This document shows positions 933 to 43,055 of a stretch of DNA of 43,055 bases, one piece after another. The DNA comes from Cryomorphaceae bacterium. GTDB lineage: Bacteria; Bacteroidota; Bacteroidia; Flavobacteriales; Schleiferiaceae. Location of the stretch: positions 1 to 43,055 of the forward strand of contig JAFIEY010000057.1 of the NCBI GenBank assembly GCA_020832345.1. Direction: 5' to 3'. The notes beneath the pieces were generated by a model. The model was given only the letters and a program-made list of their open reading frames with translations. It ran no database searches and was not told where the DNA came from. The position numbers and the translations under genes were made by a program. Position 1 is the stretch's first letter. Every line of letters begins with the position of its first letter.

Positions 933-1325
933 CTATTTTGAAGATTTGATATTGTTGAGTTCTTTTTGCATCTCAATCACCCTCAAAGTTAGTTCTTCAA
1001 TTTGACGTAGCAAAATGGCATTCATTTCAGCCAGATCCATGCCGTCTTCCGCTACTTCTGCTTCGAAAGGTACGTTGGGTAAGTGCTTGTGTTCTGTGAT
1101 GTATGCCTCCAACTCCTCAATGGTCATTAGCTGGTAGTCGTCTTCGAATACAAAATCTGCCCAGCCGTTGGAGGCAGCAATGTCAACCCGAACTTTTTCG
1201 GTGCGGATGCCGTCTTCAACATAAAGTTTATATCCTCCGGGATTGCTACCATTGAGGTCTCTACCAATAAATAACTCACCGGCATTACTAAATCTAAATT
1301 TGTCTCCAGTACCAGAATTAATTCT
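933..1325 (-). pseudogene. 3' fragment of a secreted protein with Bacteroidota-type coiled-coil tail
   Basis: About 130 codons remain of a reading frame that runs straight into the inserted repeat at 1326; the frame extends only 11 codons into the repeat and finds no ATG, just a TTG. The surviving C-terminus has the pattern common at the end of large Bacteroidota surface proteins: a beta strand (FRFSNAGELFIG), KLYVEDGIRTEKVRV, the HLPNVP turn, and a terminal coiled coil (EEL..RVIEMQKELNN). The family resembles tail-fibre/S74-like C-termini. No matching N-terminal part exists on the other side of the repeat, where the S41 protease gene ends at 1487. It is therefore most likely a decaying remnant. 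The call as a fragment is good; the exact family is uncertain. Confidence 0.7.
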
Positions 1326-1425
1326 TGAGTCCACGCCAAAAAGGATGATTTCAATCAAAATTGACGCGGAGGGGATTTTCGGGCAGGAGCTAAATAGCTG
1401 TTAGTGAGGACTCAAAAATCTATCA
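1326..1425 (-). mobile_element. MITE-like repeat, copy 1 (truncated)
   Basis: This stretch matches the reverse orientation of the about 140-bp repeat family found six more times in the window. It begins TGAGTCCACGCC, contains the conserved TTTCAATCAAAATTGA segment and the GTTAGTGAGGA..CAAAAATCTATC middle, then stops matching near 1425. About 40 bp of the family, including one terminal inverted repeat, are missing. It abuts the broken gene at 933-1325. Confidence 0.8.
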
Positions 1426-12012: not shown

Positions 12013-12055
12013 GATAACGAATGATTAAGGGTAAATAATTTAGTCGCTTAAGTCT

Positions 12056-12193
12056 TGAGTCTGCTCCAAAAAGTCCCTTTCTGCCAAAATCTTCCTTGTC
12101 GATAGATTTTTGAATCCTCACTAACGACTAGTTAGCTACGGCTCAAAAATCCCCTCGATTTTGATTGAAATCATCCTTTTTGTAGTGGACTCA
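12056..12193 (+). mobile_element. MITE-like repeat, copy 2 (full length, 138 bp)
   Basis: The element runs from TGAGTCTGCTCC to GTAGTGGACTCA, with terminal inverted repeats of about 18 bp. It is flanked on both sides by GTCT (12052-12055 and 12194-12197), a likely 4-bp target-site duplication. Internally GATTTTTGA..CTAAC and GTTAGC..TCAAAAATC pair, so the whole element folds as a long hairpin. It lies between cdsA and psd. Confidence 0.85.
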
Positions 12194-12247
12194 GTCTTGG
12201 AAATATCCGATTAATAAAAAATCGCGATAACATCCAACAAAAAAAAC

Positions 12248-17388: not shown

Positions 17389-17404
17389 ATTGGTAAAAAA
17401 TTAT

Positions 17405-17531
17405 TGAGTCTGCTCTAAAAAGTCCCTTTCTGCCAAAATCTTCCTTGTCGATAGACTTTTGAATTCTCACTTGCTCCGGTTCAAAAATCCCCTCGATTTT
17501 GATTGAAATCATCCTTTTTTGAGTGGACTCA
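17405..17531 (+). mobile_element. MITE-like repeat, copy 3 (127 bp, internal deletion)
   Basis: Ends TGAGTCTGCTCT..GAGTGGACTCA are intact and flanked by perfect TTAT duplications (17401-17404 and 17532-17535). About 11 bp around the central loop are missing relative to the 138-bp copies. It directly follows a 5' gene fragment. Confidence 0.85.
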
Positions 17532-17703
17532 TTATTGCTTAATAAATTGCTTGTGAATAATATCTTTTGTCCATAGACATTGATCACGGTAAAATCAGGT
17601 GGAATAACCCACTTTGAAAATCCTCAAAAAATACTTGAATCTGTCCAAATGAAACATGGAACAATACAAATACCAATACCAGTGCAAAATATTGTTTTCT
17701 CAT
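17532..17703 (-). pseudogene. 5' fragment of a secreted choice-of-anchor-J-like protein, frameshifted
   Basis: On the minus strand an ATG at 17703 opens a clean signal peptide (MRKQYFALVLVFVLFHVSFG) followed by QIQVFFEDFQSG. The frame then ends after about 39 codons. One base inserted in the GGG run near 17608 would restore VIPPDFTVINVYGQ, the usual continuation of EDF.SG in Bacteroidota secreted choice-of-anchor-J domains. The restored frame then runs into the MITE-like repeat at 17531 and no remainder of the gene lies beyond it. So this is a remnant with a 1-bp frameshift and a 3' loss. Family is inferred from a short motif. Confidence 0.6.
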
Positions 17704-27305: not shown

Positions 27306-27445
27306 CAAACATTTCGCAACGTAGTTGTAAAACATTGACACATTGATTTAAATGCGATTGTATTCAAGATCAACCTTAAAGCATTGTCAGTAAGCCTGAT
27401 AAAATTCAAAAAAGAAAAGGGTATGGATTGTTTTAAAAGTAAGTA

Positions 27446-27588
27446 TCAGTCCACACCAGAAAGGATGGTTTCAATCAAAATCGACCGGGAGGGAATTATA
27501 AATCGGAGCTAACTTTTTGTTAGTGAGGATTCAAAGATCTACCGACAATGAATATTTTGGCAGAAAGGGACTGTTTGGAGCAGACCCA
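27446..27588 (-). mobile_element. MITE-like repeat, copy 4 (diverged)
   Basis: Reverse-oriented copy with ends TCAGTCCACACC and GAGCAGACCCA, the most degenerate of the full-length ones. The internal TTTCAATCAAAATCGA, GAGCTAAC..GTTAGTGAGGATTCAAAGATCTA and TTTTGGCAGAAAGGGACT blocks are recognisable. No target-site duplication is evident, consistent with an older insertion. Confidence 0.8.
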
Positions 27589-33116: not shown

Positions 33117-33180
33117 AACACATTGCAATTATATTAAGCACATTTTCAAAAAATGAAAAACAAGACAGGTATTTAAATTT

Positions 33181-33318
33181 TGAGTCCACGCCAAAAATGA
33201 TGATTTCAATCAAAATCGAGGAGATTTTTGAACCTGAGCTAACTTTCTGTTATTGAATATTCAAAAGTCTATCGACAAGAAAGATTTTGGCAGAAAGAGA
33301 CTTTTTGGAGTAAACTCA
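33181..33318 (-). mobile_element. MITE-like repeat, copy 5 (138 bp)
   Basis: Reverse-oriented copy from TGAGTCCACGCC to GGAGTAAACTCA, flanked by ATTT on both sides (33177-33180 and 33319-33322), a probable target-site duplication. It sits in the gap between two plus-strand membrane-protein genes. Confidence 0.85.
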
Positions 33319-33408
33319 ATTTTTGTTTTAATTTAGCAGGCCTATAACATCCATTGTAAACAAAACGTAATGCCCTAAGCTGAATGTTGAATTAAACAAA
33401 TCCTTTTT

Positions 33409-34991: not shown

Positions 34992-35969
34992 ATGGCTCGA
35001 TTACTCACCGGAATTCAAAGCTCAGGAGAACAGCACCTCGGAAATTTATTGGGCGCCCTGGCTCCCGCCATCGAACTTTCTCAACAACCCGGCAACGATG
35101 CTTTTTACTTTATCGCCGATCTTCATTCGCTAACCACCCTGCGCGATGGTGAACAGCGACGTCACAATACCAGAGCTGCCGCAGCCGCATGGCTATCCGC
35201 AGGGTTTGATTATCAAAAAAATACGTTTTACCGCCAGAGCGATCTCGCCGGACTGGTCAACGAACTCACCTGGTATCTCGGGTGTTTTGCCCCATACCCC
35301 ATGCTGGCTAATGCTCACTCGTTTAAAGACAAATCCGACCGTCTCAGCGATGTCAATGCCGGATTGTTTTATTACCCCGTCTTAATGGCCGCCGATATCC
35401 TCCTGTACGATGCAAATTTCGTCCCTGTGGGAAAAGACCAAAAACAGCACCTGGAAATTACCCGCGACATGGCACAGGCGCTAAACAACAGTTGTGGAGA
35501 AGAACTTTTGGTCATGCCGGAACCTCTCATCCGCGAGGAAGTTATGACCATTCCCGGTACGGATGGCCGAAAAATGAGTAAGTCATACGGAAATACAATT
35601 AATATATTTGGTCCGGCCAAAACTTTGAAAAAACAAGTGATGGGCATCATAACGGATAGCACCCCATTGGAATCGCCTAAAAATCCCGACACCTGCAATG
35701 TGGTTACCCTATATAAACTCGTGGCCACCAAAAATCAAATTGCCGAAATGGAGGCCAACTATCGCAAGGGCGGTTACGGTTACGGACATGCGAAAAAAGA
35801 ATTACTGGGCGTGTTGACCGAGAAATACGGCGAAATGCGGGAAAATTATGCACGATGGATGGAGCGTCCCGATGATTTAGAGGATATACTTAAAATGGGT
35901 GCGGAAAAAGCCCGCCCTATTGCCCAGGCTGTTTTGGCGAGGGTGAGAGGCAAATTGGGTTTTAATTAG
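34992..35969 (+). CDS. trpS: Tryptophanyl-tRNA synthetase
   Basis: The 325-residue class I synthetase charges tRNA-Trp. The HIGH-equivalent GEQHLGN (about 12-18) and the KMSKS loop GRKMSKSYGN are both intact. The region FYFIADLHSLTTLR and the VNAGLFYYPVLMAADILLYDANFVPVGKDQKQHLEITRD core are typical of TrpRS. I start at ATG 34992 (MARLLTGIQSSG), not at the longer frame from 34848, which overlaps plsC on the other strand. Full length for bacterial TrpRS. Confidence 0.96.
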   Translation: MARLLTGIQSSGEQHLGNLLGALAPAIELSQQPGNDAFYFIADLHSLTTLRDGEQRRHNTRAAAAAWLSAGFDYQKNTFYRQSDLAGLVNELTWYLGCFAPYPMLANAHSFKDKSDRLSDVNAGLFYYPVLMAADILLYDANFVPVGKDQKQHLEITRDMAQALNNSCGEELLVMPEPLIREEVMTIPGTDGRKMSKSYGNTINIFGPAKTLKKQVMGIITDSTPLESPKNPDTCNVVTLYKLVATKNQIAEMEANYRKGGYGYGHAKKELLGVLTEKYGEMRENYARWMERPDDLEDILKMGAEKARPIAQAVLARVRGKLGFN

Positions 35970-36055
35970 TGTCTGTCCATAAAGTCAAATTGGATGAACA
36001 AGAAAGTTTCAGATAAAGGCTTGCACTCCGTGTAAATAGCGGGAAAAAATAGTGC

Positions 36056-36081
36056 GTTTACGGTAGTAAACAACTTTTTTT
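36056..36081 (+). terminator. Possible weak terminator after trpS
   Basis: GTTTAC GGTA GTAAAC forms a 6-bp stem with a 4-base loop and is followed by a run of T. The stem is AT-rich and short, so confidence is low. Confidence 0.3.
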
Positions 36082-36156
36082 ACCAAACCCCAACCCTAAA
36101 ACCTTCAGTAAGGGCAGGCATAACGCAGCTATCAGATACCTTATAAACAGCCACTA

Positions 36157-36321
36157 GGGCGCCAATTCGGGCTATCCGTTTCAAGTCCTCGTGCCCACCC
36201 CCGCCGGGTCAGCGGCGTGCGGGGTCTGGCTCGTATCCTCACCAGCCTCCGCCGCTCGCGTCCCGGCAGGTGGTGTCCACTGTGGGCTTTCCACTGCTAT
36301 CCCGGGCGCGAACCTGGGTGG
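36157..36321. repeat. GC-rich structured 165-bp repeat, copy A
   Basis: Begins GGGCGCCAATTCGGGC and ends GCGCGAACCTGGGTGG, with about 8 differences over 165 bp from copy B at 42736. It contains hairpins CGCCG/CGGCG and GCGGGGTCTGGC/ACCAGCCTCCGC, and paired arms GTG..ACC/GGT..CAC. Its high GC stands out sharply from the AT-rich surroundings. Phrases such as GGGCTTTCCACTGCTATCCC resemble dispersed structured repeats I recall from other Bacteroidota genomes. Orientation is the same in both copies. Confidence 0.85.
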
Positions 36322-36539
36322 ATTATAGTTTTTTGGTAATAATATTGATTGCTTATTCAAAATGTCAAAAAGCCCAACTATTTCGGTCAAAATGATTTAT
36401 AAATCAAATTGCTACTTGTGCGTAAATTTGCCATACATTGTTTGTAAAAAAATCAAAGAAAAAGGATGGAAAAAAGCCTTCTGCTAAGTTATGTTGGCAA
36501 ATTGCCCGGGCATTCAATTAACATTTAGATTATCTGTTT

Positions 36540-37814
36540 ATGACAAATAAGGATTCAACATTTTGGTCAAAACCATTTATAAGTCTAAACTCTTTTGCAG
36601 TAATTTCATTGGCGTTATTGTTATTAGGTGTCATCTCTTATTACATTGTCAGGTTCGCACCTCCATTTGTTATTGGTGATAGATTAAACCTTTTAGCGCC
36701 AATTTATTTAGACCAAAATTTTCTCCAAGGATTTTTTCACCAACACGGATCCCATTTTTTAGGTGTCACACATTTAATTACCAGCTTTTTTGTATTTCTT
36801 GCAGGAAAATCACCTTTCATCGATTTATATTCCGGATTGTTTACCACAGCATTATTGGTAACGCTTTTATTGGTTTTTCGCCGACGGTACATTGATTTAC
36901 CAATAGGCATAAATGACGTAATTATTTTATTGTTTGCCTTGAGCCTTGCACCGGCAAAGAGTTTTTATTTTTTCCCGCATATACATTTGATGCTACCGAT
37001 TTTCACGCTTTTATTTTCCCTTTCATGGTATATTAAATGGGGTTACATTAAAATTATTTTTCAGTGTATTTTAATGTTTTTGGCAGCGTTTAGTGGTTAC
37101 GCATTTATTGCTCTAATGGGTTTTGTGGTTATGGATATTTTCAAATATTTTGTTGATCGCAAAAAGTTGATGGATATTTGGATTGAAATTTTAGTTAAGG
37201 GAGTAGTTTTATTGTTCACAGGTGGTTTGTTTATTTTTCTATATAATTATCCGGCAGGTAATCCAAATGGTGACGAAGGTCTTTCCGTAAGTTATATTAT
37301 TCAAATGCTTCAAAACGCAACAGGGACAGCTTGGTCAAATAAAGGCAGCTATGTTTTCCCTTTCCTGTTGGTGTTTTTGGTATTTGTGCTAATCAGGTTA
37401 TTTAAGGTGTTTTCAATAAAGAAAAATATAGCTGTGCTAAACTTGATTGTTGCAATCTTTTTGTTTGTAATTATTAGTGGCATCAAGCGCTCCGGCGATA
37501 TAGAAAGTGCAGGTCATGCACAACGGTATTTTTCTACCATGGTGTTGCTTCCCATTAGTGTTTATTTTATCAGCACCGCTTACTTAAACCACTTTATGGT
37601 GAAAATTGGATGGTGGTTTTTTGCTTTTTGTGTATATCTGCTTCCACTAAAGCCAGCCATTTCAGATGGTCAATATTTTAAGGAAAAAGTAATTTTATGG
37701 GAAAGCTGTCTGGAAAAAAACAAAGATTTTCAATACTGTAATGATGCCGTTGAATTGGAGGTTGTGCCAAATGCTAAAAAATACAAAGACCTATACCTGA
37801 AAATAAATACATAG
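36540..37814 (+). CDS. Polytopic membrane protein, possible GT-C-type glycosyltransferase
   Basis: The 424-residue protein has about ten hydrophobic segments across its length and a short hydrophilic C-terminus (KEKVILWESCLEKNKDFQYC). The first long loop is IGDRLNLLAPIYLDQNFLQGFFHQHGSHFLG. Similar proteins in polysaccharide loci are annotated as membrane proteins of GT-C type, but I see no DE/DD motif as clear as in the gene at 7953. It converges on a DPM1-like glycosyltransferase, with 41 bp between stops, so a surface-glycan role is plausible. Confidence 0.6.
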   Translation: MTNKDSTFWSKPFISLNSFAVISLALLLLGVISYYIVRFAPPFVIGDRLNLLAPIYLDQNFLQGFFHQHGSHFLGVTHLITSFFVFLAGKSPFIDLYSGLFTTALLVTLLLVFRRRYIDLPIGINDVIILLFALSLAPAKSFYFFPHIHLMLPIFTLLFSLSWYIKWGYIKIIFQCILMFLAAFSGYAFIALMGFVVMDIFKYFVDRKKLMDIWIEILVKGVVLLFTGGLFIFLYNYPAGNPNGDEGLSVSYIIQMLQNATGTAWSNKGSYVFPFLLVFLVFVLIRLFKVFSIKKNIAVLNLIVAIFLFVIISGIKRSGDIESAGHAQRYFSTMVLLPISVYFISTAYLNHFMVKIGWWFFAFCVYLLPLKPAISDGQYFKEKVILWESCLEKNKDFQYCNDAVELEVVPNAKKYKDLYLKINT

Positions 37815-37855
37815 AAATAATTCCGTTGTTTTTGTGTTGATTTTTCAGGTAATTG

Positions 37856-38578
37856 CTACAATTTTGGTTTTAACTTGAGACTTAAAATGAGTTTGGAAAA
37901 GTTTAGTAATTCCCGGAATAATAGGCTAATTTTCACATTGGGAATTTTGGTTTCATTTTTTAGAAGCACGACCTCACTACCAATGGCAATTGAATTATCT
38001 CTTGATGCTAAATAGATAAATTCAATATCATATAGGTAGCTGTTGGTTTTAGTTTGCAAAAACACCTTCTTTCCAATTTTATTAAATCCCTTTAATCCAC
38101 ACTGAGTATCATCAACTGGGAGTTTGAGGAGTTTCTTGGTAATTAATCGCAGAGATTTTGAAAGTTTTGTTCTTTGTGCCGGAATATTATTGTAATACGC
38201 TTCGCTTCTAACGCCAAGGCAGATGTCCAAGTTGTTGTTTTTTAGTTCGTTAAAAAGGTTGATAAAACTATTGTTTGTGTATGGGAAATCAATATCGGTA
38301 ACAATAATATAATCGCCCTTCGCTTGTTCAACCCCTTTTCTTAATGTATATCCCTTTCCCATGTTTTTGTTATTTTCCAGGTATATAAATAGTGGAATAC
38401 TGTTGGTTAGGTTTTTCACCATATAGTTTTCTATACCATAATTAGCTCCATCATTTACTAAAATAATAGATATTTCAACCTCTGGTAATGTCGCGCACAA
38501 TTGTTTATAATTGTCAATTACGGTTGTTTCCCAACCTACCGTGGGGTTAAAGCAAGGCAATACAATATCTAAAGTCAT
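37856..38578 (-). CDS. GT2 glycosyltransferase, polyprenyl-phosphate sugar synthase-like
   Basis: The 240-residue enzyme has the GT-A start DIVLPCFNPTVGW, ISIILVNDGAN, the MGKGYTLRKGVEQAKGDYIIVTDIDFPY block with its DxD (DID) and the later LPVDDTQCGLKGF, typical of dolichol/polyprenyl-phosphate mannose or glucose synthases. No C-terminal transmembrane pair is present. Such enzymes load sugars onto polyprenyl phosphate, the donor used by GT-C/GT39 transferases; two candidate acceptors of such donors (7953, 36540) are in the window. Sugar identity is not determined. Confidence 0.85.
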   Translation of the reverse strand: MTLDIVLPCFNPTVGWETTVIDNYKQLCATLPEVEISIILVNDGANYGIENYMVKNLTNSIPLFIYLENNKNMGKGYTLRKGVEQAKGDYIIVTDIDFPYTNNSFINLFNELKNNNLDICLGVRSEAYYNNIPAQRTKLSKSLRLITKKLLKLPVDDTQCGLKGFNKIGKKVFLQTKTNSYLYDIEFIYLASRDNSIAIGSEVVLLKNETKIPNVKISLLFRELLNFSKLILSLKLKPKL

Positions 38579-38724
38579 TTAATCTAGGTTCAGTTTCTGC
38601 AAATTACATCAGAGATAAATTGCAAGTAAAAGTTAAATATTCTTTTTGGGAAAATGTTCCAATGTTGGTGTCAATTGAATCCAAATAAAACAAATTTATA
38701 GGCAACTGTTAAAAGCCTTATTTT

Positions 38725-38867
38725 TGAGTCTGCTCCAAAAAGTCCCATTCTGCCAAATCTTCCTTGTCGATAGACTTTTGAATTTTCACTAACAGTTAGT
38801 TAGCTGCGGTTCAAAAATCCCCACAGCGTCGATTTTGATTGAAATCATCCTTTTTGGAGGGGACTTA
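38725..38867 (+). mobile_element. MITE-like repeat, copy 6 (143 bp)
   Basis: Forward copy from TGAGTCTGCTCC to GGAGGGGACTTA, with a few inserted bases (CACAG) near the right arm. Flanked by TTTT on both sides, which fits a 4-bp duplication but is weak evidence in T-rich sequence. Confidence 0.82.
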
Positions 38868-39014
38868 TTTTTATATGGTAAATGGACATTTATTTGGATT
38901 GCTATATTAAAACAAAATATTGTAAAATGAAATCCGAATGAGAAAACTTTCTCACTACTTGTCCCAATACAAATTGACGCGAAGGATAATGCTTAATATT
39001 CGACAATTATATTT

Positions 39015-39152
39015 AGAGTCTGCTCTAAAAAGTCCCATTCTGCCAAAATCTTCCTAGTCGATAGACTTTTGAATCTTCACTAACAGCTGGTTAGCTGCGG
39101 TTCAAAAATCCCCTCGATTTTGATTGAAATCATCCCTTTTGGATTGGCCTCT
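39015..39152 (+). mobile_element. MITE-like repeat, copy 7 (138 bp)
   Basis: Forward copy starting AGAGTCTGCTCT and ending GGATTGGCCTCT, so both tips have diverged slightly. TATTT flanks both sides (39010-39014 and 39153-39157). It lies 147 bp after copy 6 in the same orientation. Confidence 0.82.
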
Positions 39153-39423
39153 TATTTTAAAACACCATCTCCCTCAAAAATCCTCTGTAGCTAAATTTCT
39201 ACTTTTCTTTATAGATAGGCAAAATTCGACAACAATCATTTCCAAATGGTCATATTTTAATATACTTTGCCTTGTGAAAAAACTAAATTTATGCATGTTA
39301 AAACCATGTAGTGTAATCATATATAAGTATGATTTGGTAAATTTTTTATTTACTTACTATTTTTATTTTTTCATATAAATGTCGTAACTTGCCTCTTTAA
39401 TAAAACCCAAAAGTATTTGCTTT

Positions 39424-39630
39424 ATGATACAATCCTATACCCAAAAATTGGCAAAGTTGTTTAAGCCTTCTTTTTTTGTCCGCATTGGCTCACTTGTTTT
39501 TCTATTTCCAGAAATGCTCTGGGCACAACCCCAGCCGCCAGGGGCTCCTTCCCCAATTGATGGCGGACTGGTTGCCCTGCTCGCTGCGGGTGCATTTTAT
39601 GGTGTGAAAAAATACCGTCAGCAAAAATAA
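39424..39630 (+). CDS. Small PID-CTERM-like sorting-tail protein
   Basis: The 68-residue protein has a signal peptide (residues about 18-34, ending MLWAQ), a short Pro-rich mature part (PQPPGAPS), the motif PIDGGLVALLAAGAFYG and a basic tail KKYRQQK. This Pro-Ile-Asp-Gly-Gly, hydrophobic helix, basic-end layout matches the PID-CTERM type of protein-sorting signal I recall from Flavobacteriia, thought to be processed by a dedicated membrane enzyme. Almost nothing is left between signal peptide and tail. The T9SS-type GLUG gene starts 92 bp downstream. Reality of the gene is supported by both signals in one short frame. Confidence 0.8.
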   Translation: MIQSYTQKLAKLFKPSFFVRIGSLVFLFPEMLWAQPQPPGAPSPIDGGLVALLAAGAFYGVKKYRQQK

Positions 39631-39722
39631 TTTTTACCTCAAGCTTTATATTTATGTAAACGCCACACTTTTTGTCCCTGGCGGCTTCACATTTTCCCTT
39701 TCTCAAAAATAACCCCATCCAC

Positions 39723-42719
39723 ATGAAAAAGTCACTATCCCTTAGCTTTTTACTCTCCTTCTTATTTATGTCCATGGCCTTTGGGCAAACCACCACCAGA
39801 CCATCAGGTGTGCAACCAAGCGGCAATGGCTCTTCCGCCACCCCTTACCAAATTGCCACCATCGAAAACCTCGTGTGGCTGGCTGATAATTCTTCTACCT
39901 GGTCAGTCAACACCTATTTTATCCAGACTTCAGATATCAATCTCGACGGCTGTGAACAATGGGATAATGGTAAAGGCTGGAAGCCTATTGGAAATTATAC
40001 CGATGCTTTTAGAGGCAGGTATGATGGGGGTGGGCATACCATCTCAAATCTAAACATTGAACGCCAAACCACAAGTGATGGCGGACACGGTGTTGGTTTA
40101 TTCGGGGTAGTAGGCGCTACACAACAAAGCCCAAGAGCTGTTGGGCAACTGACAACATTAGATCAAACCATTTATGTCAAAAATCTCATCATGGAAAACT
40201 GCACCGTAAAAGGCTTGCACGCTTCCGGGGTAGTTGTAGGTCGCGTTTTTGGACTCCTAGGCACTTCGGTGGAAAACTGTAAGGTGCTACAAAGTTATGT
40301 AGAAGGCACAAGGACAGTGGGTGCCGTTGTAGGTGCCAGCAATAGTGAGTATATCGGTAGGGCCAATGTTGCCGACCGACCCATGATGCGCCAATGCGTG
40401 GCTAAAAATTGCACCATTCAAGGTGTAAGGGGAACGGTGCAGTCAGCAGCACAAAATGAAACCAACCCCAACCAAAAGTTTGGCGCAGTAGTAGGCTGTA
40501 CCCAGCGGGGCAGGGTGGAAAACTCTTATGCCTTGGACTGTCAGGTTATTATAAATGACAGCATAAACCTCAACAATGAAACCTACGCCACGGGAATTGA
40601 ACGCATTGGCGGTATTTCAGGTTGTCTTTCAGAAGGTGCCGCAGTGGTGAATTCATACAACACAACTACCTTTGACTTCTCAAATTGCAGTTCTTGTTCA
40701 AGCTTTATTGGCCCCTTAGTAGGCTTCGACGATCCAGAATTTGGCAATTACGACGGCGCAGATATTTTATCCAATTCCTATTATAATGTAGATTACTACA
40801 ATGCAAATACGGGCTTATTTACCAATAACAATGGAGGTGCGCGCACAGAGGCTCAACTTAAAAATCGAGATTTTTATGCACAAGCATGGCTTTTCGTGGA
40901 ACCCAATGATGAGGGTATTTGGGCGATTAACAGTGCGGCAAATGACGGATTTCCGTATTTATTTTGGGAGGATTTAGATGCAACGCAAACCTTGGATTTA
41001 ATTTGGATCGGCACGGCAAATAATGATATAAATAATAGCAGTAATTGGAAAAATGGTAGTCCTCCAAATTTGAATAATGGGCAAGCTCGCTTTACCATTG
41101 CCCCCGGAGCCAAAATGGGCTTGAATATTTCGGATGGTAATGTAAAAAGGGTTTTTGTGGAAAAAAACGCCGAATTAATCATCAGACCCGGAGCCGTTTT
41201 GGAAGTAGAAGAGCAAATTGATGTCCTGGGAAAAATTGTAATAGAATCTGATGCACTCAATAATTACGGGCAACTAAAATTCAACATTTACGAATCCAGT
41301 GATAGTGACTCCCTTAATGGAATGGTGGATTTTGAAATGAAATTATCCGGTAACGGATGGCACAACATCAGTAGTCCCTTTACCGAAACCGTAGCCGATA
41401 GTTTTGGTCCCGGAAGAATAAGCACCGATTTTCACCCAAATGCCCGTAACTTTTTTGGCTGGAACGCAAGTGCCACCGGCTCCAATGCGTATAATTATAC
41501 TGAAGTACTCAAAGGTGAAGACACATTATTGGGTGGACATGGGTATATTGCCTATTTCGGCACCAATGGCATCATGGATTCACTGGATGAAGAATACACC
41601 ATTCGATTTAGTGGTTACCCCATAAGCGAAGTAAACCCTTCTTTGTTTTTTTCCACCAAAAGTGCCACATCAAGTCCGATAGAGTTTGTTGGTGATGGCG
41701 CCGGCGCAGACGACGGTTGGAATCTCATCGCCAATCCCTTCACCTGTGTACTCGATTTTTATGCCTTAGGCTTGGGAAGCAACGGCACAAATAACAGTTT
41801 TTATATCTGGGATCCCACCGCCAACAAATATAAGTTTTGGTCCGGCGCTTCCGGTGATGAAAGCAGTGAACCCAACGTTGCTCCTTTCCAATCATTCTGG
41901 ATGCAAACCAATAACAATCTTCCTTCAAATGCGACCTTACCCCTTTTAATGAATGCGCACGGAATTTTAGTTGCCCCAGATGCACCGCCATTTCTCCGCC
42001 CCAAAAAAGCGTATGATCGCGTCGTATTACATATAGAAGAAACGCAAAACCCGGCCAATAACGATTATGCCGTAGTCGCGTTTATCCCCGAAACCAACGA
42101 CGGATTCGATGGGCAATGGGACGCTCATAAGATGAGAAACGGAGCTGAGCACCCCAACATTTTTACCCGGGACAGCACGGGCTACGTCCTAGCCGTAAAT
42201 GCCATCGACTTTGACGCAGATTATACCGGCATAAAAACACTTCCACTCTCGGTTGATGGTTATCAAGATGGCCGCTCATATACCATTTCACTCGACAAAT
42301 GGCATTTGCTGAATCCTTACCATGTGTATTTGGAAGACCTCAAAACAGAAACCCTCCACGACTTGGTCAATGATAACTTTAGCTTTGTCTATGACGAAAA
42401 TTTAGACGACCGATTTGTGATTCACTTCCAATCCATAACCGTGAGCAACCAAACCTTTGAAGACGCTCTGAACAGCAAGAACAACGCCTTCAAAATGTGG
42501 ATTTACGAGGGGGTTGGATATTTTGAGCCGACATTTGACGGTCCGGCAAACATCGAAGTCATGGATCTCAACGGAAAAGTATTGCAAGCCGAAAAGGCCC
42601 AATTCCGCAATGGCACCCAGCATACATTTCAAATGCCAAACGCCGCCGCCGGAGTTTATACGCTTCGGGTACAAGGGGGTGGTCTTAACAAGACCATCAA
42701 GTTTTTTTATACACAGTAA
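39723..42719 (+). CDS. Large T9SS-secreted GLUG-motif surface protein
   Basis: The 998-residue protein has a signal peptide (KKSLSLSFLLSFLFMSMAFG). Residues about 25-330 contain repeated GLUG-like beta-helix units (VGLFGVVGAT, VGAVVGASNSE, FGAVVGCTQRGRVENSYALD, IGGISGCLSEGAAVVNSYN). The middle contains NNSSNWKNGSPPN and a beta-solenoid-like stretch, then two GW-N-I-S/ANPF units (GWHNISSPF, GWNLIANPFTC) common in Bacteroidota adhesin-type proteins. The last about 75 residues are a T9SS sorting domain (IEVMDLNGKVL, AAGVYTLRVQ, KTIKFFYTQ). Probably a surface-exposed adhesin. ATG 39723 is chosen at the signal peptide. Confidence 0.88.
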   Translation: MKKSLSLSFLLSFLFMSMAFGQTTTRPSGVQPSGNGSSATPYQIATIENLVWLADNSSTWSVNTYFIQTSDINLDGCEQWDNGKGWKPIGNYTDAFRGRYDGGGHTISNLNIERQTTSDGGHGVGLFGVVGATQQSPRAVGQLTTLDQTIYVKNLIMENCTVKGLHASGVVVGRVFGLLGTSVENCKVLQSYVEGTRTVGAVVGASNSEYIGRANVADRPMMRQCVAKNCTIQGVRGTVQSAAQNETNPNQKFGAVVGCTQRGRVENSYALDCQVIINDSINLNNETYATGIERIGGISGCLSEGAAVVNSYNTTTFDFSNCSSCSSFIGPLVGFDDPEFGNYDGADILSNSYYNVDYYNANTGLFTNNNGGARTEAQLKNRDFYAQAWLFVEPNDEGIWAINSAANDGFPYLFWEDLDATQTLDLIWIGTANNDINNSSNWKNGSPPNLNNGQARFTIAPGAKMGLNISDGNVKRVFVEKNAELIIRPGAVLEVEEQIDVLGKIVIESDALNNYGQLKFNIYESSDSDSLNGMVDFEMKLSGNGWHNISSPFTETVADSFGPGRISTDFHPNARNFFGWNASATGSNAYNYTEVLKGEDTLLGGHGYIAYFGTNGIMDSLDEEYTIRFSGYPISEVNPSLFFSTKSATSSPIEFVGDGAGADDGWNLIANPFTCVLDFYALGLGSNGTNNSFYIWDPTANKYKFWSGASGDESSEPNVAPFQSFWMQTNNNLPSNATLPLLMNAHGILVAPDAPPFLRPKKAYDRVVLHIEETQNPANNDYAVVAFIPETNDGFDGQWDAHKMRNGAEHPNIFTRDSTGYVLAVNAIDFDADYTGIKTLPLSVDGYQDGRSYTISLDKWHLLNPYHVYLEDLKTETLHDLVNDNFSFVYDENLDDRFVIHFQSITVSNQTFEDALNSKNNAFKMWIYEGVGYFEPTFDGPANIEVMDLNGKVLQAEKAQFRNGTQHTFQMPNAAAGVYTLRVQGGGLNKTIKFFYTQ

Positions 42720-43055
42720 TTTTTTGGTTAAATATGGGCGCCAATTCGGGCTATCCGTTCCAAGTCCTCGTGGACACCCCCGCCGGGTCAGCGGCGTGCG
42801 GGGTCTGGCTCGTATCCTCGCCAGCCTCCGCCGCTCGCGTCCCGGCTGGCGGTGCCCACTGTGGGCTTTCCACTGCTATCCCGGGCGCGAACCTGGGTTG
42901 GTGGGACGTATTTTAACAACAGTCCGGCCCATTTTTTTAGTATTCAATTTTGTGGTAAACTGTGTCAAAGGCCGGCATCCAAACGGTGTCTTTAATAATT
43001 AAATATTCATTATTTCGCTTTAGATTAAAAGTTATAATTCTATTGATATTTCCAC
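42720..43055. other. Terminal intergenic region with GC-rich repeat B
   Basis: The 165-bp repeat lies directly after the GLUG gene; the remaining 155 bp to the window edge is AT-rich and shows no gene. Confidence 0.6.
42736..42900. repeat. GC-rich structured 165-bp repeat, copy B
   Basis: Same length and orientation as copy A at 36157. Differences cluster in the paired arms: GTGGACACC here against GTGCCCACC in A, and GGTGCCCAC against GGTGTCCAC on the opposite arm. The GCGGGGTCTGGC/GCCAGCCTCCGC hairpin is slightly better paired here than in A. It begins 16 bp after the GLUG gene stop. Confidence 0.85.

Follow-up and report, generated by a model that had tools for sequence, protein, structure and literature searches.

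The window, which is the whole 43,055-nucleotide stretch of DNA analysed here (contig C73 of a 4.03-Mb draft genome in 260 contigs, from a Cryomorphaceae bacterium), contains two nearly identical repeats with a short run of genes between them. Do these repeats delimit a segment that moves, or are they members of a wider family and, if so, does that family consist of RNAs or of DNA elements?

A repeat pair within a dispersed family

The two copies are direct repeats of 163 nt each (36157-36319 and 42736-42898), identical at 156 of 163 positions, with starts 6579 bp apart. As the initial annotation had described, the seven mismatches in the 163 bases fall mostly within variable arms, and the left arm of copy B (GTGGACACC, 42770-42778) is the exact reverse complement of the right arm of copy A (GGTGTCCAC, 36272-36280). 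Its view of the repeat as a structured element is likewise borne out: each window copy forms a long imperfect hairpin that is more stable than shuffled sequences (on the + strand under RNA parameters, z = -2.45 for copy A and -3.38 for copy B; on the - strand under DNA parameters, z = -4.95 for copy B). The parts of the hairpin are listed in Table 1.

Table 1. Positions of the hairpin elements, their parts and the adjoining repeat within the window
Feature	Coordinates	Strand	Remarks
Hairpin element, copy A (GGGCGCC...GGGCGCG)	36157..36310	+	R1 170.8 bits; Flavo-1 26.8 bits (sub-gathering); Rfam models the opposite strand
Hairpin element, copy B	42736..42889	+	R1 167.9 bits; Flavo-1 23.2 bits (sub-gathering)
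Copy A, left conserved end: GGGCGCC, short loop, CGGGCTATCCGTTTCAAGTCCTCG	36157..36191	+	From alignments
Copy A, right conserved end CTGTGGGCTTTCCACTGCTATCCCGGGCGCG	36280..36310	+	Pairs with left end
Copy A, variable arm, left, GTGCCCACC	36191..36199	+	
Copy A, variable arm, right, GGTGTCCAC	36272..36280	+	
Copy B, variable arm, left, GTGGACACC	42770..42778	+	Exact reverse complement of copy A right arm
Copy B, variable arm, right, GGTGCCCAC	42851..42859	+	
Copy A, apical stem-loop CTGGCTCGTATCCTCACCAG	36226..36245	+	Loops alike in other subfamilies
Right-hand extension AACCT.GGTTGGTGGG	42890..42905	+	Common to other subfamily-A copies
Repeat from a different family, with ends GTCCATAAAGTC...TATAAACAG	35960..36156	+	Abuts copy A upstream

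A genome search for the repeat returned 41 blastn matches in the own genome, the best of which (E = 1.3e-87) is the query itself, and R1, a covariance model built from 10 copies, recognizes 56 or more related hairpins there (E ≤ 0.01), a number well beyond chance expectation. These fall into subfamilies A (which includes both window copies), B and C, plus singletons. They are mostly intergenic and adjoin ordinary genes, trpS among them, in either orientation. Called genes lie on both sides of 37 of 53 own copies (a set that leaves out truncated L045 and three antisense matches) and of 49 of 65 copies in relatives (3 of 68 matches, second or further ones on L190 and L197, being left out); the four classes of neighbour orientation contain 12, 9, 9 and 7 of the former, and 16, 11, 11 and 11 of the latter. 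Gene orientation, considered as a pointer to a terminator or UTR role, followed no constant pattern.

This abundance bears on the proposal in the initial annotation that the pair specifically brackets a gene segment, and that the segment might be excised. The window copies are two among at least 56 dispersed in the genome; if 56 copies are placed uniformly over 4.03 Mb, any one of them has about a 17% chance of lying within 6.6 kb of another. At that density a neighbour at 6.6 kb is unremarkable, so copies A and B delimit no mobile segment and the genes of the interval (a membrane protein without a Pfam match, a GT2 glycosyltransferase and a large protein with a sub-threshold secretion-tail match) require no shared story. 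The bracketing is incidental, and excision of 36157-42900 is without support. Copies were also considered as brackets of a transposase gene, which we rejected: the genes between neighbouring copies were ordinary in the stretches inspected.

The element is present in 14 of 40 relatives, the own genome counted among them, and its distribution is patchy even inside one genus: at least 54-56 copies in G000, 43 in G003, 6 in G002 and 1 in G001, with 0 in G004 (copy counts are lower bounds, the number of candidates scored having been capped). Further afield, when 84,980 species genomes were searched with a degenerate pattern for the right end, at least 110 stretches matched; of these, the 80 listed belong to Bacteroidota and, many of them, to one Spirochaetales metagenome-assembled genome (MAG), with a single one in another spirochaete MAG, a type of source in which contamination is possible. 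A search for carriage by phages or plasmids gave no match. As to the surroundings of copy A, the upstream repeat at 35960..36156 and the hairpin element recur jointly at the end of contig C75, and further MITE-like repeats are plentiful within the window.

Hairpin architecture and arm covariation

All copies form an imperfect hairpin, about 155 bases long, whose ends are conserved. Left end (CGGGCTWTCCGCTNCAAGTCC) and right end (GGGCTTTCCGCTNCWATCSC) have nearly the same sequence and pair head to tail, with symmetric three-base loops. In the wider family the layout comprises a closing stem, an optional hairpin I, the conserved left end, a variable hairpin II and the conserved right end; in the relative G007 a quite different sequence takes the place of hairpin II. 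In the copies whose GGCGCC and right end are clear (25, 32 and 54 in three sets), the left flank is rich in T, with no corresponding A or T richness in the right flank.

Unlike the ends, which do not drift, the arms have changed time and again while their pairing is kept. Ten subfamily-A copies were aligned by sequence alone and compared with the structure into which copy B folds: 92.2% of cells are paired, and 21 of 55 pairs are doubly changed, a number reached in none of 500 shuffles, whereas structures slid by 1-3 columns gave only 4-7 doubly changed pairs. With RNAalifold, 28 copies retained 12 outer pairs, 8 of them with changes on both sides. (Truncated copies L008 and L013 were excluded from alignments A1 and A2.) From copy to copy, unrelated yet complementary sequence takes the place of entire arms. 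Copy B is instructive in this respect: its left arm reads as the reverse complement of the right arm that is usual in the family, and the remaining 8 of the 9 closest copies keep GTGTCC or GTGCCC. The best explanation is a change of several bases in one step, by copying from arm to arm.

Relation to Rfam Flavo-1 and site occupancy

At the Rfam gathering score, the window yields no match. A permissive Rfam scan, on the other hand, places Flavo-1 (RF01705) on members of both the wider family and the window family, always on the opposite strand. Scores are graded: copies A and B reach 26.8 bits (E = 0.2) and 23.2 bits (E = 1.8) against a gathering score of 42, and the best close relatives 41.8 bits (G025) and 37.6 bits (G026). 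Alignments over the full length of the model (1-76), at the position of the element and on the opposite strand, were obtained for copies in G000, G025, G026 and named genomes; that of the own copy L046 begins only at position 8. At E ≤ 5, 10 of 19 scanned loci match and 9 do not, several own copies being among the latter, so the sequence link of the window branch leans on the graded relatives and not on the window copies alone. When 295 genomes from the class were searched, with 15 candidates scored in each, Flavo-1 was found in 108 at E ≤ 0.001 and in 68 above the gathering score; the own genome has none. Bearing in mind these graded scores and the lack of a match in the own genome, the window family is most readily understood as a branch that escapes the Rfam model, and the window pair as a long-armed, diverged variant of Flavo-1.

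Flavo-1 itself has been catalogued since 2010 without a known function. Its 2010 description rated it 'y', probably an RNA (PMC2864571), and one review counts it among the most abundant small-RNA families (PMC9029176). In F. psychrophilum, its matches lie indistinctly sense or antisense to transcribed regions, with many outside them (PMC9723704). The openly available texts searched gave no function for Flavo-1 and no account of it as a mobile or dispersed DNA element. Searches for the core sequence of the element, or for palindromic repeats in these groups, returned nothing on point among the entries listed.

We compared two Flavo-1 elements of the closed genome G241 with orthologous intergenic sites in four congeners; the comparison concerns Flavo-1 proper in a related genus, not the window copies. 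At both sites Flavo-1 is present in two of the five genomes, G241 and G268 (73.1 and 73.0 bits at one site, 69.6 and 79.6 bits at the other), and was not found in G026, G148 or G294, although at the second site G294 is anchored by one flank only. This pattern fits insertion of Flavo-1; loss is possible. Set against the refuting condition of the initial annotation (no covariation and no association with gene gain or loss), covariation is strong and Flavo-1 itself has been gained or lost at orthologous sites, but no gain or loss was found for the genes between copies. A candidate empty site for copy A, by trpS, was set aside: three relatives are without the element there, but their gene order differs. 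No target-site duplication was recognized by eye in the flanks, and no close filled/empty pair was found for the window copies.

DNA or RNA, and how the element may spread

Selection for an RNA structure should leave many G-U intermediates, but few A-C, on one strand. Among pairs with a Watson-Crick majority, own copies have 2259 standard, 44 G-T and 59 A-C (2559 cells) and relatives 2659, 55 and 67 (3051 cells), even though they were counted in an alignment fitted with an RNA model in which G-U is rewarded. By comparison, 14 tRNAs from the same loci have 281 standard, 21 G-T and 0 A-C (302 pairs); the contrast is significant (Fisher p = 1e-7), with the proviso that this control is biased to a high G-T ratio, as the tRNA finder favours standard pairs and G-U. 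The Watson-Crick-majority counts exclude two + strand positions with a G-T majority; over all pairs, the + strand has 107 G-T versus 60 A-C in own copies and 118 versus 67 in relatives, and a core T-G pair is almost fixed on this strand. (Three antisense rows of alignment A3 were dropped from pair and mismatch counts.) As G-T is no commoner than A-C in pairs with a Watson-Crick majority, unlike in tRNAs, the counts point to DNA rather than RNA. The pattern suits matching of the arms at the level of DNA, whether single-stranded DNA is under selection, one arm is copied from the other, or both, and suggests that the scattered hairpin is a spreading DNA repeat and not an RNA gene. In the tip hairpins of Flavo-1 proper, the GT share is 4%, an uninformative value because folding selects the pairs (one of 26 copies was unparsed and one element occurs twice).

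We also considered folding energy as an indicator of the working strand, and rejected it, since own copies and other genomes conflict: the - strand folds better in 48 of 53 own copies with RNA parameters and in 50 of 53 with DNA parameters, whereas the + strand is better, with RNA parameters, in 9 of 10 copies of G007 and in 44 of the 63 core pieces taken from named contigs.

Which enzyme might move such an element? Suspicion fell first on Y1 transposases, since those of subclass 2.6 in Bacteroidetes are reported to have flanking 'atypical secondary structures' with copies elsewhere (PMC6006769). As a partner, Y1/RAYT was nevertheless rejected: the single Y1 transposase gene of the own genome is broken and not flanked by the element, and in relatives neither the element by R1 (0 of 30 Y1 loci) nor Flavo-1 (0 of 40, two of which are apparently the same gene) was found at Y1 loci. 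Five of 36 genomes with at least 6 Flavo-1 matches are without a Y1 match. Flavo-1 and Y1 co-occur above chance (90/108 versus 113/187 genomes, p = 4.5e-5), a figure on which we do not rely, as relatedness and genome size are uncontrolled. In G017, a single case, half an element lies near a Y1 gene. The analysis found no enzyme that mobilizes the element.

We hypothesize, with the balance of the evidence on our side though well short of certainty, that the two repeats are copies of a palindromic DNA element, dispersed and for the most part intergenic, which forms a long-armed branch of Flavo-1 and spreads as a non-autonomous, single-strand-folding element moved in trans. The analysis shows the family, its structure and covariation, the large number of copies, the patchy range of hosts and the varying occupancy of orthologous sites by Flavo-1. 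The element has three parts: two conserved ends, paired with one another across small, symmetric interior loops; at the base, a closing terminal stem of GCGCC/GGCGC; and an exchangeable outer tip arm, short in Flavo-1 proper and in spirochaete copies, and about 100 nt long in this genome, with a conserved loop. It may fold when its DNA is single-stranded, e.g., at replication forks, and an enzyme could then move it in trans; we infer that single-strand transposition of this kind is the best mechanism. Complementarity of the arms may in part be renewed during hairpin extrusion, by copying one arm from the other.

Four other explanations have to be weighed. The foremost of them, although unlikely, is a static protein-binding palindrome under selection (nucleoid, gyrase or terminator-like; cf. 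REP/BIME) that moves only rarely: it would account for ends conserved across phyla and for the intergenic locations, but sits poorly with copy numbers that range within one genus from at least 54-56 (G000) through at least 43, 6 and 1 to 0, and with near-identical subfamily-A copies, which suggest recent spread. Slightly less probable is that Flavo-1 is what its catalogue entry implies, a small structured RNA or a transcribed UTR element. Strong covariation, the better folding of own copies on the strand that Rfam models, and the 2010 rating agree with this reading, as does the excess of G-A type mismatches on the Rfam-modelled strand (on the + strand, 383 Y-Y versus 165 R-R); against it stand the G-T and A-C counts, the inconstant orientation to genes and, in F. 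psychrophilum (PMC9723704), the disregard of Flavo-1 matches for the sense of transcription.

A MITE of a DDE transposase, in which the palindrome would represent long terminal inverted repeats, is doubtful, a little more so than an RNA. The inverted ends GGGCGCC/GGCGC and the abundance of other MITE-like repeats in the window are in its favour, but a target duplication was not recognized, the flanks do not match in A/T richness, and conserved symmetric internal loops with a variable tip are unexpected from plain decay of terminal inverted repeats. Finally, an attC-like recombination site, another suggestion in the initial annotation, or an excision repeat for 36157-42900, is highly improbable. 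A hairpin with conserved structure and variable tip recalls attC, yet this reading fails because there is no integron integrase (none of 10 host genomes has one over the TIGR02249 curated cut-off); moreover, there are no cassette arrays, and the many copies are dispersed in both orientations.

If the hairpin is indeed a spreading DNA element, Flavo-1 should be dropped from the counts of small RNAs and treated as a mobile element whose enzyme has yet to be found. We tentatively, and with somewhat less assurance than for the pair itself, extend the argument to the whole 'Flavo-1 RNA' family: it may be a cross-phylum family of selfish DNA elements that fold as single strands and whose tip arm is interchangeable, moved by a class of enzyme not yet linked to them, with a long-armed branch, invisible to Rfam, filling genomes of this kind. 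Other orphan 'RNA' motifs could be put to the same simple test by counting G-T against A-C.

Three known systems come closest. In the case of Flavo-1, the ends span the 76-position model on the opposite strand, the same small helices are stacked beneath a variable apical hairpin, and the hosts are Bacteroidota and spirochaetes. The differences are that the window copies are GC-rich, carry at the tip an additional arm, about 100 nt long, that has a conserved loop, and score 26.8 and 23.2 bits, under the 42-bit gathering score. REP, BIME and REPIN sequences (associated with RAYT, TnpA-REP, Y1) resemble the element in being many dispersed intergenic hairpins; however, our element is much longer, flanks none of the Y1 genes searched and has no REP-type 5' GT[AG]G foot at the hairpin, its left ends being GGGCGCC or GGGGCGGC and similar. 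ERIC-like units are also intergenic imperfect palindromes, of about 125-170 bp, for which no transposase is known; the element described here differs from ERIC in its sequence and hosts, and in that its arms are rewritten while their pairing stays.

Two further repeat families in the window

A second dispersed repeat family of about 150-180 bp, delimited by the inverted ends GAGTCYRCNCCAAAAAG...CTTTTTGGAGYRGACTC, occupies seven sites in the window and recurs dozens of times across this genome and the genus; it is a MITE-like element. A third family, of about 190 bp and with ends GTCCATAAAGTC and GACTTTATAGACAG, directly adjoins copy A of the hairpin element and is present in several genomes of the same genus.

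Locations of repeats and of contig ends at the hairpin element
Feature	Locus	Position
MITE-like, copy 1	window	1318-1424
MITE-like, copy 2	window	12048-12223
MITE-like, copy 3	window	17399-17537
MITE-like, copy 4	window	27438-27588
MITE-like, copy 5	window	33172-33319
MITE-like, copy 6	window	38718-38873
MITE-like, copy 7	window	39007-39182
Third family	window	35960-36156
Third family	L013	1317-1500
Third family	L410	
Third family	L403	
Contig end (example)	C153	10
Contig end (example)	C61	13844
Contig end (example)	C104	24146
Contig end (example)	C75	3269

Tip arm and contig ends of the hairpin element

The tip arm, the variable outer arm of the hairpin element, can be occupied by other palindromic or repeated sequence, as in the copies at loci L338 and L352 and in genome G007; it thus resembles a site at which other repeats land.

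Several contigs of this genome terminate within or next to copies of the hairpin element, which seems to break the assembly; at the end of C75, the sequence inside the hairpin is noisy.

Y1 transposase genes and neighbouring repeats

The sole Y1 transposase gene that we found in this genome (L031 1501-1810, contig C99) is split, with a GAGTC MITE copy lying inside it. In G007 (L104, contig C23, near 41152-41490), a Y1 transposase gene lies amid six sub-threshold matches to the Rfam RNA Acido-Lenti-1, which may be a further ‘RNA’ family that is in fact a transposase-associated DNA hairpin. In genome G017 (near L103 2066), half of a Flavo-1-like element adjoins a Y1 gene, the product of which contains YIKNQKQHH; this sequence resembles a motif that is on record for Y1 subclass 1.2 (PMC6006769).
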